From Dehalococcoidia bacterium (GTDB lineage Bacteria; Chloroflexota; Dehalococcoidia; Bin125): a stretch of 64,000 bases of DNA. The stretch is taken from contig JAJDWB010000010.1 in assembly GCA_022825855.1 (NCBI GenBank), positions 1 to 64,000 on the forward strand, written 5' to 3'. The translations under genes were made by a program, and so were the position numbers. Each line of letters begins with the position of its first letter. Position 1 is the first letter of the stretch. The notes under the pieces are model-generated. The model saw only the letters and a list, made by a program, of their open reading frames with translations. It made no database searches and had not been told where the DNA came from. Of this stretch, positions 1,785 through 37,961 are shown in pieces.

Positions 1785-4700
1785 ATGAGGCGGCCCACGC
1801 TACTGGCTCTGCTGTCCAGCCTGCTGATCCTGGTTGCCGCTGTTGCGGCGAGCGTGCTGTCGACCGGGCCGGTGTCGGCGCAGGCGTACCCGGAGTTTCT
1901 GATTGAGAATGTGCGGGCGCACGGGACGGCGAATCAACTGGTGATCACCTGGGAGCCGCCGCGTGTTGCCAAGCAGTACACCGTCGGCACCGGGGACGAT
2001 GCGACGACCATTGCGCGCAAGACCGGAGTCTCAAAGTACATTCTGCGGTTCGAGAACCGAGCGGCAATCGATGTCGTCCCGAGAAACCAGGGCGTGGACG
2101 TCACAGCCGACATCAGCGGGCTGGAGCCCGGCAAGCGCTACCACTTCAGCATCCAGACCTGCTTCGACGGCACGGGCACCTACTCCGGTTGCTACCTGCC
2201 GGAGGCCTACCGTTCGGCCTACACCGCGCCCAAGGCGCCGCTGTTTCTCAGCGTCGACCAGGCCCGGGGCAGTGAAGTGAAACTGAGTTGGGAAGGCGGC
2301 AACACCGTCGACCGCCAGCCGTTCGACCTGTACGACTATTTCGACTGCCAACAGAAGAGGATCGTGCCCGGAGTCAGCACCCCGTTTTCCTCATGTCGCA
2401 GGGGGTTCAGCGACCGGGCGAAGAACGTGACCGTGCCCGACATCGACACGGATTTCGTGTATGAGTTCCGAGTTCGCCACAAGGCCAGGAGCTTCAGGAC
2501 GACGATCCGCGTTGACGACCACAACCACGATGTCGCTGTCAACTACGAAGCCGGCCCCTGGCAAACGGTGACGGTCGGCGGGAAGCCGAAGGCGCCGGCC
2601 AACCTGCGGATTACGCGGACGACTTCCGGGTCGGTTTCGCTGGCCTGGGATCCGGTGACGGAGACCACCAGCGGCGGCGCGCTCGTTGGCAATGTCAGGT
2701 ACCTGGTTGCCTGGATCAATGAGTGGTTCGTTGATTGCACCTTCACAAATGAGAACACGGGGATTGAACTGCCGGGGCGGTGTGTCAGGAGCGACCAGGG
2801 CTGGGGCCCGTCCACGACGGGCACCAGCGCCACCGTGACGAACCTCGACCGCAACAAGACCTACAAGTTCAGCGTGCTGTCGCGCGGCGATCACCGGGTC
2901 GGCCAGAGCACCGGCTGGGCGGTCACGTCCCGGGCGGGGAGAATCAACCAATCGTTCCCGCAGAACAATCCGCAACCGGCCCAGCGCAAGGCGAAGGTCA
3001 CGGTGACCGCGGCCAATCCGGTCGTGGTGCGAGAGGGCGGGTCGGCCAGCTACACGGTGAGCCTGGGCGTGCGGCCGAGCAGCAACGTGGTGGTGCAGAC
3101 GTCGAGCGACCACGCCGCCGTGTCGACGGTGCCGGCGAGTCTGACGTTTACGCCGGAGAACTGGCAGACGGCGCAGACGGTGAGCGTCCGCGCGGGGCAT
3201 GACGGCGACGTGGGCGACGAAACCGCGACGATCCGGCATGCGGTCAGCGGGGCCGACGAATACTCCTCGACGGGCGCGCCGGTTGCCGTCGCGGTCGAGG
3301 ACGACGATCGGGCCGGAGTGACGGTGAGCACGACGAGCCTGAGCCTGACCGAGGGCGAGACGGCGAGCTACACGGTCGTGCTGGACGCGAAACCGAACGG
3401 CAACGTGTTGATCTCGCCGTTCGCGCAGCACAGCGCGGTCTCGGCCGAGCCGTGGACCTTGACCTTCACGCCGCAGAACTGGGCGACGCCGCAGACGATC
3501 CGGGTGACGGCGGTGCAGGACGCCGACACGGCGGACGCGCAGACGTGGGTGATGAACGTCGTGGCGGCGTTCTCGGGTTCCGGGTACGTCGGCGTCTCGG
3601 CGCCGACGGTGAACGTGTCGATCACGGACGACGACGAGCCGCAGGCGCAGGCGGGTCAGCAGGACGATCAGCAGGATCAGGGCGACTCGGAGCCCGAGGC
3701 GGAGCCGCAGCCTGAACCTCAGCCGGAGCCGACACCTGAACCGGAAGCCGAGCCCGGCAGCGTCACGCTGAGCGCGAGCAGCCTGCCGGTCGCGGAAGGC
3801 GGTTCTGCGACGTACACCTTGGTCCTGGACGCTGAACCGACGGCGAACGTGACGGTCGCGATTTCGAGCGACCACGCCGGCGTGTCGGCGCAGCCGAGCA
3901 GCTTGACGTTCACGCCGCAGAACTGGTCGTCGGCGCAGACGGTGCGCGTGGAGGCGTCGGAAGACGACGACACGTCGGACGAGTCGGCGACGCTGAGCCA
4001 TGCGGTGAGCGGCGCGGGCGAGTACGCCGGCATTGCGGTCGCTTCGGTGGCCGTCGCCGTGAGCGACAACGACGAGCCGCAGGTCCAGGCGGAGCCGACG
4101 CCGGAACCGGAGCCGCAGCCTGCGCAGCAGCAGTCGCAGGAGCCGGTCTCCGAGCCGGAGCCGGTGGTGCTGAGCGATCGTGACGTGCTGGTCGCCTTCT
4201 ACGAGTCGACCGGCGGCGCCAACTGGACCAACAACACCAACTGGCTGAGCGAAAAGCCGATCGGTCAGTGGCACGGCGTGACGACGAACTCGAACGGCGA
4301 GGTAACGCACCTGGCGTTGCGGATCAACAACCTGAGCGGCTCGCTGCCGGCGGCGCTGGGTCAGTTGGACGCGCTGCAGGTGCTGTCGCTGGATCGGAAC
4401 CAGTTGAGCGGGTCGCTGCCCGCCGAGCTGGGCAACCTGTCCAACCTGACTCGCCTGGCGATGAACCGCAACAGTTTGAGCGGGTCGATCCCGTCGGAGC
4501 TGGGCAATCTGTCCAAGCTGAGCATCATCGGTCTGGCGCGGAACCAGTTGAGCGGGTCGCTGCCTGCGAGTCTGGGCGGGCTGAGCGGACTGACCAAGGT
4601 GTCGTTGCACGACAACACGGGTCTGAGCGGTCCGTTGCCGTCCGGTTTCGGCAGCATGTCCGGCTTGAGTCGGCTGGCGGTCTCGCGGACGGGTCTGAGC

Positions 4701-5922: not shown

Positions 5923-7197
5923 ATGCCCCATCACGTCAAGAGCCAGGCGCTCTCGCACCTGCGGATCTGCGACTTCACCGGTCAGTTGGCCGGAGCGGGC
6001 GCGACCAAGTTCATGGCCGCGTTCGGCGCGGAGGTGATCCGGATCGAGGATCCGACGAACCACGGCCGCTGGGACATCCTGCGCGGGATGCCGCCGTATG
6101 TGGACGATCGGCGCGGTCCCGAGCTGGGCGGGCCGTTCAACAATCACAACGTGGGCAAGCTGGGGATCACTCTGAACATCAAGACGGAGAAGGGGCGCGA
6201 ATTGTTCGAGCGGCTGGTGGGCATCTCGGATTGCGTGACGGAGAATTTCTCGTCGGGCGTGCTGCGGTCGTGGGGCTACGACTACGAGCGGCTGAAGGAG
6301 TTGAAGGACGACATCATCTACGTGTCCAACTGCGGTTTCGGGCACTCGGGGCCGTACGAGAAGTTCAAGACCTGGGGTCCGATCGTGCAGGCGACGAGCG
6401 GTCTGACGATGTCGTCGGCGATTCCGGATCAGCCGCCGGCCGGTTGGGGCTACTCCTACATGGATCACACCGGCGCCTACTTCATGGCGATGGCGATCAT
6501 GCTGGCGATTCACCATCGCAACCGCACGGGCGAGGGTCAGTACGTGGACGTTGCGGCAACCGAAGCGGCATTGACGCTGAACGGTCCGGTGCTGCTGGAC
6601 TACACGGTCAACGGGCGTCCGCTGCGGCGCGAGGGGTATCCCGACGCGAACCACTCGGTGAGTCCGGCGATGGCGCCGCACAATATCTATGCGGCGCAGC
6701 CGATTCCCGGCTCGTTCGACGAGGCGTGGATTGCGATTGCCTGCCGCAACGACGAGGACTGGCACGCGATGCGCGATGTGCTGGTGTCGGACGGTTGCGA
6801 GTGGGCGGCGAACGACGACTACGGTCAGTTGGCCGGTCGGATGGCGGCGCAGGATGAGCTCGACGAGCGGATCGGCGAGTGGTGCATGCGGCGCGATCCG
6901 TTCCAGTCGGCGGAGCTGCTGCGTGCGGCGGGCGTCCCGGCGAATGCGGTGCAGACGCCGGAGCAACGGATCGATCAGGATGTGAATTCGGCCGAGTCGA
7001 AGCTGTGGCCGACGATCCGGCAGACGGAGATGGGGCGGGTGCGCGTGGACGGGATTCCGGCGCGTTTCAGCAAGACGGATTGGTCGATGACGCGCGGCGC
7101 GCCGGTGCTGGGCGAGGACAACGACTATGTCTACGGCGAGTTGCTGGGTCTGAGCGAGTCCGAGATCGCCGGGCTGTACGAAGAGGGCGTGCTCTGA
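5923..7197 (+). CDS. Family III (CaiB/BaiF) CoA-transferase, catalytic-Asp subunit
   Basis: A 424-residue protein of the CaiB/BaiF/formyl-CoA transferase family, which moves CoA between acids through an aspartyl anhydride. The catalytic Asp (Asp169 of formyl-CoA transferase) aligns with Asp181 in YMDHTG, exactly 19 residues before RTGEGQ. Other family landmarks are FGAEVIRIEDP near the N-terminus, the CGFG..GPY segment and APHNIYAA. The start is preceded by AGGAGTAGGA. Its stop overlaps the start of a second CaiB-like gene (ATGA) whose Asp is replaced by Tyr, so a heteromeric enzyme is likely, as in SmtAB and BbsEF. Substrate unknown. Confidence 0.92.
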   Translation: MPHHVKSQALSHLRICDFTGQLAGAGATKFMAAFGAEVIRIEDPTNHGRWDILRGMPPYVDDRRGPELGGPFNNHNVGKLGITLNIKTEKGRELFERLVGISDCVTENFSSGVLRSWGYDYERLKELKDDIIYVSNCGFGHSGPYEKFKTWGPIVQATSGLTMSSAIPDQPPAGWGYSYMDHTGAYFMAMAIMLAIHHRNRTGEGQYVDVAATEAALTLNGPVLLDYTVNGRPLRREGYPDANHSVSPAMAPHNIYAAQPIPGSFDEAWIAIACRNDEDWHAMRDVLVSDGCEWAANDDYGQLAGRMAAQDELDERIGEWCMRRDPFQSAELLRAAGVPANAVQTPEQRIDQDVNSAESKLWPTIRQTEMGRVRVDGIPARFSKTDWSMTRGAPVLGEDNDYVYGELLGLSESEIAGLYEEGVL

Positions 7198-8450
7198 TGA
7201 CGACCAACCCGAACCCCGGGATGATGGCGCTCGACGATCTGCGGGTGCTGGAGATCGGCGACGAGCGCGGCGCCTGGTGCATGAAGCTGATGGCCGACAT
7301 GGGCGCGGACGTGATCAAGATCGAGCCGCCGGAGGGCGATCCGTCGCGGCAGTATGAACCGTTCGTGGACGACGAACCGCACCACGAGCGATCGCTGTTT
7401 TTCTGGTACTACAACACGTCGAAGCGCAGCGTGGTGATGGACTTCGACGACCGCTCGAACGCCGACGCGTTCATGAAGCTGGTCGAGTCGGCGGACGTGA
7501 TTCTCGACACCGATACCTACGATCCGATCGGGCGTCTGGGGCTGGACTACCGGCAGATCATGTCGGACAACCCTGGGCTGATCTGGTGCACGATCACGAA
7601 CTTCGGCTTCGGCTCGTCTCGGGACGAGGAACCGCACACGGATCTGACGCTGGCCGCCAACGGCGGCTTCGCCTGGATGAACGGCTACGACGACCACACG
7701 CTGCCGCCGGTGCGCGGCGGCGGTCAGCAGGCGTATCACACGGGCTCGAACTACGCCTTCATGTCGATCCTGACGGCGCTGCTGCACCGCGACGCGACGG
7801 GCGTGGGTCAGCACATCAACGTGAACATCAACGGGTCGGTAAACGTGACGACCGAGGCGGGTTCGTACTCGTGGCTGGTTTCGCACTCGACGGTGCAGCG
7901 CCAGACCGGGCGTCACGCGGGGGTCGCGCCGTCGATGCCGTCGCAGATTCAGTGCGCCGACGGCCGCTACGTGAACACGGGCATCCCGCCGCGACGTCCG
8001 GCCGAGTTTGGACTGTGTTACCAGTGGCTGGAGGACGAGGGTCTGCTCGATCAATTGCCCGAGGCGGCGCTCTTGCAGGTCGGGGCGGAGTTGGAGAGCT
8101 TCTCGCTGGCCGACGTGTTCCGGGGCGACAACGAGGAGTTGCTGGCGGTCTTTGGGGCCGGGCGGGCGGCGTTCGATCTGCTCGCCTCGAAGCTGACCGC
8201 CTACGAGTTCTACACCAAGGCACAGAACTTCGGCTTCCAGGTCGGCGTGATTCACAGTCCGGAGGAGGCGCTGGAGGACCCGCACTTCGTCGATCGGGGC
8301 ATGCAGGTCAAGGTGGAGCATCCGGAACTGGGTCGAGAGGTGATCTACCCCGGAGCGCCATATCAGTTGACGAAGGGAAGTTGGGGGATCACGCGGCGTC
8401 CGCCACTGCTGGGCGAGCACACGGATGAGGTGCTTGGGGAGTTAGGCTAG
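7197..8450 (+). CDS. Family III CoA-transferase-like subunit lacking the catalytic Asp
   Basis: A 417-residue CaiB/BaiF-family protein coupled by a 4-bp overlap to the upstream CoA-transferase. It keeps the fold landmarks (MGADVIKIEPPEGD, NFGFGSS, ATGVGQHINV, LGEHTDEVLGEL). The position equivalent to the catalytic aspartate is Tyr180 (QQAYHTG), 19 residues before ATGVGQ. It therefore should not form the aspartyl-CoA intermediate itself and probably serves as the structural or substrate-selecting partner of the 5923 gene product. It ends 4 bp inside the 3' end of the convergent hydrolase gene. Family certain; partner role inferred. Confidence 0.9.
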   Translation: MTTNPNPGMMALDDLRVLEIGDERGAWCMKLMADMGADVIKIEPPEGDPSRQYEPFVDDEPHHERSLFFWYYNTSKRSVVMDFDDRSNADAFMKLVESADVILDTDTYDPIGRLGLDYRQIMSDNPGLIWCTITNFGFGSSRDEEPHTDLTLAANGGFAWMNGYDDHTLPPVRGGGQQAYHTGSNYAFMSILTALLHRDATGVGQHINVNINGSVNVTTEAGSYSWLVSHSTVQRQTGRHAGVAPSMPSQIQCADGRYVNTGIPPRRPAEFGLCYQWLEDEGLLDQLPEAALLQVGAELESFSLADVFRGDNEELLAVFGAGRAAFDLLASKLTAYEFYTKAQNFGFQVGVIHSPEEALEDPHFVDRGMQVKVEHPELGREVIYPGAPYQLTKGSWGITRRPPLLGEHTDEVLGELG

Positions 8451-9322
8451 CCGGCCCGGCCGAGCCACTTCGCGGTCGCGCGTTGAGCTTTAGGGTCGAC
8501 GATCAGCCCGTGGCCGACGCCGCGGAGCCGGACGAAGTCCGCGCTCGGAATCGAGGAGGCCAGCGCCTGGCCGAATGCGATGGGGATGGTGGTGTCGGCG
8601 TCTCCGTGGACGATTAGGGTTGGGCATTTGATTCGATGCAAGTCGTTGCTGAGGTCCGAGTTGCGCTGGGCTTTCATGTTGAGCAGGGCTCCGAGCGTGA
8701 GGCGGGCGAGTTCGGTGTTGGACAGGTTGTCCAGCGCGCGCTGACGGTTGTCCCTGGCTGAGTTGAGCGCCGGGTCGGGTTGGGGCGGTTGGGGCGGCGA
8801 GCGCCACTCGTCCTCGGATGCGGCTACCGCCTCGTGAATCCCCTGTTGCTCGAACAGATCGAGCAGTGCGAGGCGAGTGGCGACGGTGGCGAGGCGGTCG
8901 GCGACGAAGGGGTCGGTGTGGTCTACTCCGCTCGGCGAGAGCGTCATCAGCGCGGCGCCGGTGTTGAGGAGGACGAGTGATTCGACCCGATCGGGATGGT
9001 CGATGGCGAGCCGCATTCCGATTGGGCCACCGGCCGAGGTCGCGATCACCGCGGCCTGCTCAATACCGAGATAATCGAGCACGTAGACGGCGTCGTTGGC
9101 GAGGTCTTGGAGAGTGAACGGGTCGGCGTCGTACTGCGAGAGGCCGGCGCAGCGGCGGTCGTAGCAGATCAGCTTGAGGCCGTCGGTGGGGACCTGCCAG
9201 CGGATTCGGGGACCGTTCCAGAGCGTTGAGGACGGGCCGCCCCAGGCGCCGTGGACGATCAGGACGGGCCGACCGGCGGGGTCGCCGCCAACGTCATAGG
9301 CGACGCGGCGGCGGTTGATGAT
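8447..9322 (-). CDS. Alpha/beta hydrolase (start codon uncertain)
   Basis: About 291 residues of a complete alpha/beta-hydrolase fold: oxyanion segment VHGAWGG, nucleophile elbow ATSAGG (Ser present), acid HGDADTTIP and base GVGHG. The reading frame opens immediately after the stop of the MBL gene at 9325, but no ATG, GTG or TTG lies between there and the first conserved strand (NRRRVAYDVGG). The coordinate given uses an ATC codon next to the MBL stop; an ATA 12 nt upstream is the other option. It is the third gene of the luciferase-like/MBL/hydrolase operon, probably an esterase or lactonase. Confidence 0.75.
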   Translation of the reverse strand: MINRRRVAYDVGGDPAGRPVLIVHGAWGGPSSTLWNGPRIRWQVPTDGLKLICYDRRCAGLSQYDADPFTLQDLANDAVYVLDYLGIEQAAVIATSAGGPIGMRLAIDHPDRVESLVLLNTGAALMTLSPSGVDHTDPFVADRLATVATRLALLDLFEQQGIHEAVAASEDEWRSPPQPPQPDPALNSARDNRQRALDNLSNTELARLTLGALLNMKAQRNSDLSNDLHRIKCPTLIVHGDADTTIPIAFGQALASSIPSADFVRLRGVGHGLIVDPKAQRATAKWLGRAG

Positions 9323-34158: not shown

Positions 34159-36297
34159 CTAGTTGCTGACGTAGAGGATGTCGTTGTCGGTGACCAGGAA
34201 GTCGGTCGAGCCGGGAACCTCGTTGCCGTTGACGACCGAGTAGCGGACCCAGGCGGAGCCGTTCCACAGGTGGATGGCGGTCGCGCCGCGGCCCGAGACC
34301 AGGGCGAAGAGCTCGGAGGCCGAGCTGGCGGTGTCGCAGGTGTAGGTCGCGAAGCCGCTGGTTTCGCTCAGGCAGCCAAGGGTGACTTCCTCGGCCTCGG
34401 CGGTGTCGGCGGCGCCAGCGGTGCTGTTGACCGTAGTGGCTGCCTTGCCGCTGCCAGAGATTGCCGAGATCACTGAGCGGCCATCACCGATCACAACAAA
34501 GGTCGCAGTGGCCACGCCGTCCTTGGTCATCTTGCCGGCGTTGCCGACCAAGTCCAAGATGGCGCCGTTGCCGCTGGCTCCGAAGGTGACCTCAGTGCCG
34601 TCGGAGACGGAGTTTCCGTCCTTGTCGGTCACAGTGGCAGTCGCGGTGACGAAGGCATCGTCGTCACCGGGGCTGGTGTTGTCTACGGCAAGTTCGATGT
34701 TCGCAGCGGCACCGGCCACGTTGAACGTCGCCGTGTCCTCGAGCTCTCCCTGGCTCACCGTGACGGTGTACTCGCCGGCGGCCAACGGCGCCGCCTGGGT
34801 GCCCTTGCCGGTCAGTGTGATGTAGTACTTCGTGCCAGACTTCGTCGGCTGAGATGCGTCGATCTTCGAGCGCAACACGCTCTTGTCGTCTGGACCAGTG
34901 ATGACAATCCGAACGCCTCGAGTCGGCGGGGTTGCCTTGTTGCCACCATCATCGGTTGCCGTGACCTCAAGCTTGACAGTGTCATCGTCAGCGCCAGCCT
35001 CATTCACTGCAAGCAGTGCTTCGGTAGCGTCAGCGACCGACAAGCCTGTCGGTGTACCTGAGAAGGTCAGCGTGACCGTTTCAGTCGTGATGGAGGTGCC
35101 AGGACCAATGACCAGGGCGTACACATCTACTGTGCCGGGCTTGCTGTTCGCCTTGCTGAGGGAGAACTTCACCGTTTGGCCAACTCGCTCACCTGTCTCT
35201 TCTTCCCGAAGAACGTTGCCAGTTACCCCAGTAACACCGAAGTCAACTCTGCCGCCTCCTGCGATGACCTGAATCTCAGAGACATCGCCAGGGTTCGACT
35301 TGGAACCAAGACTGTTGAAGGCCTGCACCACCAGGTTGATTTTGCCACCGACGAGGACCGTTCCAGACTCAGGAATTGTCTCATCCTTGATTGTCGCCGG
35401 GTTGTCGTCCATGACGTTGCCGAGCGACAAGGTTGCGCTACCAAGCCCAGCGCCAGCATCGTCTGTAACGGTCAGCGTTTCAGTGTCGCTGGCCGTCACG
35501 CGACCTGTCGCAGCTTCCTGCGAGTCGGCGCTAGCGGTGACGGTGTAATCGCCGGTTGGCACCCCCGCGGTGGACACCAGGAACGTTGCCGAGATCCGGA
35601 CCGAAGGCTGGTCGCCATCGGTAGCTGGATCGCCATCAACTGCGCTGACCTGGTCGCCGACTGCAGATGCGGTCTGAACCCGCGTAGCCGTCCTGCCCTC
35701 GCCACTGACAATGGCCAACGGCGCAGGCACGGTAAGGGAAATGCTCGGGCCGTCTGCTGCAGTGTCGCTCTGCGCGTTGGGCGAGTACGACGCGGTAACG
35801 GTGACGGTCAGCGGTGTGGTTGCGCTCGCCCTGACCGTGTTGTCGGAGTCGCCGAAGTCGATCTTTGTGATCTCGAAGCGATGGACCTCGAACAGGTAGA
35901 CGACATCGGTGACATCAGGGTCATCACCCTCGTCTGGACCATCCGCCACTACCGTGCGGTGCGTCACAGTTGCAGTGCCGAAGTCAGCGGCCGTGACTGT
36001 CGAGCCACTGATCGTGACAACCTCGTCGTCGCTCGACTGCAGGTACTCACCGACTGTAGTGGCAGTCAGTTCTGCGCTATCCGCGACTGCGTCCGGGCTA
36101 GTGGTGCCTGGAATGTCACACGAGTCGGTGTTACCGAGATCGTTTGTGAAGGGTGCTTCAGCAGTGTCGGCAGTACAGTCGCCCAGTGCGATCGCCGCTC
36201 TCGCCGACGGCATCACCGTGAACATCGCAGCGACGAGGGCGAGCAGTGTCGCCAAAGCCACCACATTGGTGCGCTTGCGCGCAAGTGATCCAATCAT
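34159..36297 (-). CDS. Secreted Ig-like repeat surface protein
   Basis: A 712-residue protein. The start at 36297 has GGGAGAAG upstream and gives a signal peptide MIGSLARKRTNVVALATLLALVAA... ending near SARA. The mature part is all-beta with repeated Ig/invasin-like strands (for example ADGPSISLTVPAPLAIVSGEG, TVLVGGKINLVVQAFNSLG, DKDGNSVSDGTEVTFGASG). The C-terminal domain ends with AIHLWNGSAWVRYSVVNG and VTDNDILYVSN. There is no LPxTG motif or terminal membrane helix. Likely an exported cell-surface or extracellular protein. A 16-C homopolymer lies 82 bp upstream of the start, and the FPDTG protein gene follows. Confidence 0.85.
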   Translation of the reverse strand: MIGSLARKRTNVVALATLLALVAAMFTVMPSARAAIALGDCTADTAEAPFTNDLGNTDSCDIPGTTSPDAVADSAELTATTVGEYLQSSDDEVVTISGSTVTAADFGTATVTHRTVVADGPDEGDDPDVTDVVYLFEVHRFEITKIDFGDSDNTVRASATTPLTVTVTASYSPNAQSDTAADGPSISLTVPAPLAIVSGEGRTATRVQTASAVGDQVSAVDGDPATDGDQPSVRISATFLVSTAGVPTGDYTVTASADSQEAATGRVTASDTETLTVTDDAGAGLGSATLSLGNVMDDNPATIKDETIPESGTVLVGGKINLVVQAFNSLGSKSNPGDVSEIQVIAGGGRVDFGVTGVTGNVLREEETGERVGQTVKFSLSKANSKPGTVDVYALVIGPGTSITTETVTLTFSGTPTGLSVADATEALLAVNEAGADDDTVKLEVTATDDGGNKATPPTRGVRIVITGPDDKSVLRSKIDASQPTKSGTKYYITLTGKGTQAAPLAAGEYTVTVSQGELEDTATFNVAGAAANIELAVDNTSPGDDDAFVTATATVTDKDGNSVSDGTEVTFGASGNGAILDLVGNAGKMTKDGVATATFVVIGDGRSVISAISGSGKAATTVNSTAGAADTAEAEEVTLGCLSETSGFATYTCDTASSASELFALVSGRGATAIHLWNGSAWVRYSVVNGNEVPGSTDFLVTDNDILYVSN

Positions 36298-36378
36298 GTC
36301 TTCTCCCTTTCCACGGGAATCAGGGGGGCGCCGGCAACCCTTGCCGACCACACAGCTGACAAGGAAAAGCGTCCTATA

Positions 36379-36394
36379 CCCCCCCCCCCCCCCC
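36379..36394. repeat. Poly-C tract (16 C) upstream of surface-protein gene
   Basis: The longest homopolymer in the window, 82 bp upstream of the minus-strand start at 36297 (it reads as poly-G on the coding strand). Prone to slippage, so its length in any assembly should be treated with care. Confidence 0.9.
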
Positions 36395-36457
36395 GTCAAG
36401 GGGTTGGCGATACCGAAGCGGCACAAATTACGTTGGGGCAACATTCGGGGAGGGGCG

Positions 36458-36645
36458 GACCCCCCTCTGTCACTCCGTGACATCTCCCCCCTGAAGGGGG
36501 GAGAGAGTGCATGGGGAGGGGCTGCCGCCGCCTGTTCAGGCCAGGCCCCCGCCTACGCGGGGGCGACGTAGGGGGGTGACGGGAGGCCTTATCAGGCCAG
36601 GGGCAGCCCGTGCGGGCCCCCGCCTGCGCGGGGGCGACGTTGGAT
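36458..36645. repeat. Repeat cluster, type B plus two type C hairpins
   Basis: A type B element at 36461-36510 is followed by two hairpins CCCCCGCCTACGCGGGGGCGAC / CCCCCGCCTGCGCGGGGGCGAC near 36546 and 36618. Together with the poly-C run this fills the 380-bp gap 36298-36677. No gene is seen there. Confidence 0.85.
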
Positions 36646-37186: not shown

Positions 37187-37420
37187 TCAGCGATCCCACG
37201 AGGCGCGCTCTTCGGCGAGGTAGTCGTCGACCTCTTTGCCGGTCTTGAAGAGGCGCTCGCGGGGGCCGTCGTTGATGATTTGCCAGATGGTGCGGCGGGG
37301 CGGGGCGGGCTCGTGGAGGATGACGACTTCGACGGTCTGGCCTGCTTCAAGTTCCGGGCAGACGAGTTCGAGCTTGCCGCCGGGCTGGACGGTGACCTGC
37401 TGCTTGAGCTCTTGCGGCAT
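37187..37420 (-). CDS. VapB-like / AbrB-like antitoxin-type protein, no toxin partner
   Basis: A 77-residue protein. The N-terminal half is a beta strand-rich swapped-hairpin-like segment (QQVTVQPGGKLELVCPELEAGQTVEVVIL). The C-terminal half carries the LFKTGKEVDDYLAEERASWD tail typical of small antitoxins paired with PIN-domain VapC toxins. No PIN gene follows; the next downstream gene is the coiled-coil protein. AAGGG precedes the ATG. Assignment is by pattern only. Confidence 0.6.
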   Translation of the reverse strand: MPQELKQQVTVQPGGKLELVCPELEAGQTVEVVILHEPAPPRRTIWQIINDGPRERLFKTGKEVDDYLAEERASWDR

Positions 37421-37555
37421 GGGATTGCCCTTCGATGCTCGGGGAGCCGTGTTCATTGTATCGGCGGATCGGAGGGGGCGGGTTCGGTTAACTTGCCGTG
37501 ATGTGGGTGGCATTTGGCGGGGGGAATCGATAGGCTGAGTTGTACAACTGAATAT

Positions 37556-37712
37556 TGGGGCCGAATCCCCGCGCGGTCTGACCGGGCGGGGAGCGGGGGA
37601 CCCACCAACTTGGGGTGAATGCGATTCGTCCGCTCCTGGAGCCGAAGAGTCGCACGGCGCGCTCCCTTGCGCCGAACCCGTCAGCTAACCCCGTAGGCGA
37701 CCGAGGGAGACG
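37556..37712 (+). ncRNA. Cyclic-di-AMP riboswitch (ydaO-yuaA type)
   Basis: Carries the conserved blocks of the ydaO motif in the right order and on the plus strand: GGAGCGGGGGACCCACC (37590-37606), TTGGGGTGAAT (37610-37620) and GCCGAACCCGTCAGCTAAC followed by CCGTAGGCGACCGAGGGAGA (37671-37709). The class senses c-di-AMP and normally controls cell-wall hydrolase, resuscitation-factor or ion-transport genes in cis. Here no plus-strand gene follows before a strong terminator at 37910. Boundaries are approximate. Confidence 0.85.
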
Positions 37713-37909
37713 GCGCGCCGGTTTGCGAGTTTGCGAACCGCCGCGCAGACCAGAACCCGTGTCTTGAGCACGGCTCCATCGGTCAGCCCGCCTGCTCACG
37801 GAGCGTGAGCGGCGATCGGCCAACCGACACGAGAGTCACGCCGGGAGCGACCGCCCGGCGCACTCAGGGGCACGGGTTTCTCGCTCGCCCGGCCCCGCTT
37901 CCTGGCCGA
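37713..37909 (+). other. Structured, non-coding stretch between riboswitch and terminator
   Basis: About 200 bp without a convincing ORF but with several hairpins: CGGTTTGC/GCGAACCG (37719-37740), CTCACG-gag-CGTGAG (37795-37809) and CGCCGGG/CCCGGCG (37839-37860). It could be an extended expression platform, a small RNA body or the remnant of a lost gene. The 540-bp gap 37421-37961 holds only this, the riboswitch and the terminator. Confidence 0.5.
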
Positions 37910-37940
37910 CCCCCGGACATCGCGTCCGGGGGTTCGGTTT
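37910..37940 (+). terminator. Intrinsic terminator closing the riboswitch transcript
   Basis: Perfect 9-bp arms CCCCCGGAC/GTCCGGGGG with a 5-nt loop, followed by TTCGGTTTA. It may also serve the convergent enoyl-CoA hydratase gene ending at 37962. Confidence 0.75.
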
Positions 37941-37961
37941 ATCCGGAGACCTCACAGCCGA

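Follow-up and report, generated by a model that had tools for sequence, protein, structure and literature searches.

Riboswitches that recognize c-di-AMP are known as cis-acting regulators of transport, cell-wall and osmotic genes. Bacteria also make small RNAs with CU-rich, anti-Shine-Dalgarno seeds, the "cuckoo" RNAs of alphaproteobacteria among them; these RNAs are not known to carry an aptamer. A review links the ydaO riboswitches to genes that encode transporters or serve cell wall remodelling and the osmotic response (PMC7266159). Two small RNAs controlled by B12 riboswitches, EutX of Enterococcus faecalis and Rli55 of Listeria, carry ANTAR sites that capture EutV (PMC7602753). The merRNA of Bdellovibrio is a stand-alone c-di-GMP riboswitch RNA, 445 nt long and devoid of an ORF: its massive expression has been measured, a role as a reservoir has been proposed, and it is not conserved outside Bdellovibrio (PMC3627812). 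Searches of a literature collection that takes in few subscription journals turned up no noncoding product behind a riboswitch for c-di-AMP.

The RNA described here lies in a 64,000-nucleotide stretch of a Dehalococcoidia genome (referred to below as the window) and has something in common with each of these systems. It has the full-length aptamer of the ydaO/yuaA class (RF00379), and its relatives in sister genera also have the usual attenuator behind that aptamer, but what it would regulate is a conserved noncoding module, there being no gene in cis. With EutX and Rli55 it would share the device of a riboswitch attenuator that governs the making of a trans-acting noncoding RNA, while differing in ligand and aptamer and bearing no sequence relation to them; where they have ANTAR sites, the conserved 3' part of the present RNA has an anti-Shine-Dalgarno-like linker. 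Like merRNA, it stands alone, is about 400 nt long, and carries a cyclic-dinucleotide riboswitch but no ORF; merRNA differs in its c-di-GMP ligand, its measured massive expression and its limitation to Bdellovibrio. With the "cuckoo" RNAs it shares an exposed CU-rich stretch beside or within hairpins. The RNA is best read as a riboswitch-regulated regulatory RNA, following the logic of EutX/Rli55 (for B12) or of merRNA (for c-di-GMP).

Comparison of genome sequences establishes that the locus matches the aptamer model and has no coding gene behind it, that the module is conserved and structured, and that it is strictly coupled to the aptamer; that c-di-AMP acts on other genes through this RNA is probable. 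The explanation that we favor, with reasonable though by no means full confidence, is that of a noncoding RNA, some 400 nt long and standing alone, with its own promoter, a 5' c-di-AMP aptamer and a 3' effector module, through which the signal would act in trans. The initial annotation of the locus had offered a riboswitch-controlled small RNA as one option among several, and it is this option that the comparative evidence supports.

The aptamer and its locus

The ydaO-yuaA motif had been recognized on the plus strand from its conserved sequence blocks, and the covariance model bears this out: positions 37549-37714 (+) match RF00379 over its full length (model 1-134 of 134) at 83.3 bits, E 6.8e-18 (cmscan, Rfam 15), above the gathering score of 38 bits, and contain the invariant core of the ydaO aptamer. 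Class membership is accordingly given by a score above cut-off over the whole model. A search of the entire 2.8-Mb genome finds this RF00379 match and no other; three genomes of another family (G051, G077 and G093, family f33) have 5-6 separate aptamer-core matches each, as against one in the window's genus. The c-di-AMP synthase domain (PF02457) is present in 13/13 genus genomes checked, including the window's own. The host bacteria may live in sponges, a guess made from isolate names.

The RNA has a minus-strand gene on either side: a small ORF upstream (~37187-37513) and echA (PF00378; 37962-38777) as the next gene 3' of the RNA, whose opposite direction had been pointed out before. The earlier statement that no credible ORF follows the aptamer also holds, the ORFs found there being short, chance ones that are not common to relatives; no ORF of at least 30 aa is kept in position and frame across the genus. 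The adjacent downstream plus-strand gene that is a usual, if not strictly defining, feature of ydaO aptamers is absent from the window's genus. What is found is a conserved noncoding effector part without an ORF, of the kind that characterizes EutX and Rli55. The downstream hairpins that had been noted are equally well founded: the segment 37549-37945 folds at -224.5 kcal/mol (z = -5.9 relative to shuffled sequences), and its fold is conserved.

Two other features lie further upstream. At 36541-36640, a palindromic, GC-rich intergenic element that looks REP-like (ccccgcct.cgcgggggcgacgt) occurs twice, and a 774-aa ORF on the minus strand (34159-36483) resembles a repetitive secreted or surface protein; Pfam has nothing that matches this ORF, and the other genus genomes lack a homologue of it at this place.

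Conservation within the genus

A 411-bp stretch of the locus was searched for in 100 relatives. It is present at nearly its full length, and with 73-85% identity, in all 14 of the other genus genomes, so that the whole RNA of ~400 nt is kept at the same locus in 15/15 genus genomes examined, between a 3-hydroxyisobutyrate-dehydrogenase-like gene upstream and echA plus SRAP downstream. In the genus alignment, promoter-like blocks are followed by the aptamer and by long invariant blocks that extend to the final hairpin; the flanks align poorly. The 4-fold degenerate sites of the neighboring echA, each genome being compared with the window, serve as a yardstick of relatedness (the echA values for G005, for which the comparison picked the wrong ORF, are to be ignored). 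Identity to the window is 46-86% at these sites, 82-94% in the aptamer, 74-82% in the platform, 91-100% in hairpin H1 and 86-100% in the H2-linker-H3 module (37867-37939). Measured against echA, the gene-less piece is thus the best-conserved piece.

A misassembly, one of the possibilities raised at the outset, is discounted by the recurrence of the same arrangement in the 14 other assemblies of the genus. None of these has an NlpC/P60, Rpf or transporter gene at this place, and hairpins H1, H2 and H3 are kept across the genus. On this comparative evidence, the RNA is neither relic nor misassembly.

The proposed effector module

H1 (37833-37865, +) is formed by GAGTC and ACTC around GCCGGG, a loop and CCCGGC, and is paired in 100% of cells. 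H2 (37867-37896, +) presents the loop UUUCUCGCUC at 37877-37886, which is kept while the stems change. There follows an exposed linker, CUUCCUG (consensus CYUCCUG; 37898-37904, +), a presumed anti-Shine-Dalgarno-like seed that is found in 18/19 sequences, and then the closing hairpin H3. Folded in isolation, the module adopts the order hairpin, free linker, hairpin in 19/19 sequences, with linker unpaired probabilities of 0.68-0.99. H3 likewise folds in every one of the 19, its arms being wholly different in sister genera. No known RNA family of Rfam matches the module, even when thresholds are relaxed. Over 10 bp, the 3' arm of H3 (GGGGGUUCGG) complements CCGAAUCCCC in the aptamer; chance alone should give matches of such length in an RNA this long, and the complementarity is discounted.

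The same module stands behind the aptamer in three sister genera of the family (G015, G016, G018 and G019), and the aptamer there adjoins the same dehydrogenase gene wherever the contig is long enough to tell. At 141-181 nt past the aptamer, one finds GGACAGGG and a loop with UCUCGCUC-CCCUGUCC, then GCCUCCUG, then the closing hairpin. Both arms of the H2 stem differ between genera (GGGGcaCGGG/CCCGnCCCC versus GGACAGGG/CCCUGUCC); loop and linker are unchanged. The module varies little within the window's genus, and the covariation in it therefore rests on these four sister-genus genomes.

What might such a module do? The exposure of CYUCCUG and its anti-Shine-Dalgarno-like character suggest pairing with the start regions of mRNAs. 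Alternatively, the module might sequester a regulatory protein, as EutX and Rli55 sequester EutV, and not pair with mRNA at all: a protein could bind two neighboring hairpins whose loop and linker are invariant, and the best-known precedent works in just this way. We think this unlikely, though by no means fanciful, because the exposed CYUCCUG complements Shine-Dalgarno sequences and because no specific protein is indicated. An effector that pairs with mRNA is the reading followed below.

A covariance model of the module (R1) applied to 393 genomes of the class finds it in 19 genomes of the family (E 8e-18 to 3e-7). A marginal R1 match in G107 (E 0.004) is not accompanied by an aptamer, and a blastn match to the module in G061, in a region that also lacks an aptamer, is a chance match. 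Neither aptamer nor module was found in G017, which represents a fifth genus of the family. In an exact-motif scan of 84,980 species, the intact architecture occurs only in Dehalococcoidia/Chloroflexi records that match the family, each time 164-306 nt past an aptamer, and the hairpins are absent from the remaining motif matches. By these searches, the module is confined to one family of Chloroflexota and strictly coupled to the ydaO aptamer.

The predicted ends of the transcript

Promoter-like boxes, TGGCAT (37508-37513) and TAGGCT (37531-37536) separated by a 17-nt spacer, lie on the plus strand as conserved blocks ahead of a predicted transcription start at ~37544 (ACAACTGAATA). In the genus alignment, a GCA block, a TAnnCT block and the start ACAACWGAATA are kept; sister genera also have a TAnnnT box together with AACTGAATA. 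A consensus scan makes no promoter call at 37508-37536, and the resemblance to a sigma-70 promoter is to that extent weak.

The 3' end is presumed to lie at H3 and its weak U-tract, UUUAU (37905-37942, +). The initial annotation had seen a perfect 9-bp terminator here. The hairpin (37905-37939) is indeed very stable; the perfection and the terminator are less secure, since the hairpin has one bulge and its poor U-tract elicits no call from a consensus terminator scan, which needs 5 or more T in 8. G007 and G008, two of the 15 genus members, have CAAUUC as their tail and lack the U-tract; in three sister-genus genomes the U-tract is better than in the window.

Putative switch strands between aptamer and module

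Aptamer and module are joined by strands that can pair in more than one way. The 5' strand of the aptamer's P1 helix (a) lies at 37557-37564, and the 3' strand of P1 (b; GGCGACCGAGGGAG) at 37696-37709; b has a partner, b' (CTCCATCGGTCAGCC), at 37774-37788, two hairpins (37713-37747 and 37757-37773) lying between them, and a' (ATCGGCCAACCG; 37815-37826) can pair with either a or b' (all on the plus strand). In the consensus fold of 15 genomes, the b-b' helix is paired in 98.9% of cells and the a-a' helix in 97.3%, with double changes at two pairs of the latter; the inner hairpin between b and b' is kept in all 15, its sequence differing, and a b'-a' hairpin is possible in 15/15 despite inserts of 3 to ~60 nt.

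In the four sister-genus genomes, a hairpin and U-tract (an intrinsic terminator) directly follow the aptamer and precede the module, and the 3' arm of this terminator (GAUCGGC, for example) can pair with the P1 5' strand GCCGAAUC (duplex -8.8 to -14.1 kcal/mol). We infer from this anatomy, which also sets the direction (ligand to termination), a textbook attenuator: P1 formed, with ligand bound, would lead to termination, and P1 open to antitermination. The window's genus has no such U-tract ahead of the module, save for a U-rich hairpin insert in G014, and the four mutually exclusive strands remain. The ligand may there control folding, stability or factor-dependent termination. Thermodynamic folding of three sequences favors the unconstrained fold over one with P1 forced by ~4-13 kcal/mol, so that the ligand would need to take effect while the RNA is being transcribed.

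The attenuator bears on a further explanation, that a very abundant RNA simply binds c-di-AMP as a reservoir or sponge in the manner of merRNA (445 nt), its 3' part serving stability alone. The existence of a gene-less stand-alone riboswitch RNA of similar size and the stable hairpins at the 3' end speak for it. A stability element need not, however, keep the sequences of the H2 loop and of a single-stranded linker while its stems change; a terminator ahead of the module, as found in the sister genera, is understandable as a means of controlling it but not for a sponge; and a pure sponge, which had been among the original suggestions, leaves unexplained that conservation is highest past the aptamer. 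It is accordingly a doubtful candidate, and the stand-alone RNA with an effector module remains the preferred reading.

Genes in cis

The next plus-strand gene in sister genera encodes a stand-alone YjeF_N-domain paralogue (L068:7308-8093, L067 ~7838-8650, L069:1302-2081) that differs from the long housekeeping form; those genomes of the window's genus that were checked lack it. The RNA and YjeF_N are separated in G015 and G019 by an SRPBCC gene on the minus strand, which makes cis control very unlikely there. A -10-like TACT box directly abuts the YjeF_N ATG, suggesting a leaderless mRNA. That the RNA is an ordinary cis leader decaying after loss of this gene, or the remains of a deleted gene as initially entertained, is most improbable, the paralogue's pattern of presence and absence notwithstanding: the gene-less part is the best conserved and is strongly kept in 19 genomes, an opposite-strand gene adjoins the RNA in two sister-genus genomes, and the module closes with its own hairpin ahead of a gene that appears to have its own start.

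Ordinary ydaO riboswitches of the class serve as a control: in five other families, a plus-strand ORF begins 1-75 nt past the ydaO copy, and one of these ORFs encodes a GT20 protein. In G026, the gene directly behind ydaO (L024:1403-3055) encodes a GT20 protein of the trehalose-6-phosphate synthase type (PF00982), an osmolyte gene. G018 and G019 have second ydaO copies (L070 ~3382-3523, G018:C24; L071 ~7048-7190, G019:C19) ~80 nt before a KamA-like radical-SAM gene of the lysine 2,3-aminomutase type; control of beta-lysine osmolyte synthesis by c-di-AMP would fit an osmotic role.

Proposed mechanism

The stand-alone RNA with a trans-acting module could work as follows. In sister genera, binding of c-di-AMP would stabilize P1 and free the 3' arm of the first hairpin; transcription would then end there, and no effector module would be made. 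In the window's genus, where the U-tract has been lost, strand exchange between (a-b + b'-a') and (a-a' + b-b') would refold the RNA and thereby control its activity, stability or completion. The effector would act in trans through pairing of the CYUCCUG linker, and possibly of the H2 loop too, with Shine-Dalgarno-like sites in mRNAs, and one riboswitch would thereby govern genes that do not adjoin it. A more specific version, which we put forward tentatively and would not bet on, makes the RNA of the window's genus allosteric: it would sense c-di-AMP directly and expose or hide the mRNA-pairing module by refolding, controlling a regulon with its own synthesis unchanged.

A search of three genomes for the seed CCAGGAAG-N3-10-ATG, in which 30/49 places were read, yielded no convincing target. 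The two candidates recurring in more than one genome, an HrcA-like site internal to the coding sequence and a small protein resembling a zinc ribbon, whose Shine-Dalgarno sequence is an ordinary one, are too weak, and there is no recurrent seed match around the KamA homologues of the genus.

Significance

A conserved c-di-AMP riboswitch driving a noncoding effector would extend this class from cis to trans regulation. As it is the sole c-di-AMP riboswitch of its genome, the c-di-AMP regulon of these Chloroflexota would, if this reading is true, be testable through one RNA. The family also presents an evolutionary series, from an attenuator with its U-tract in the sister genera to the loss of the U-tract in the window's genus, which lets one ask how an attenuator turns into an allosteric RNA.
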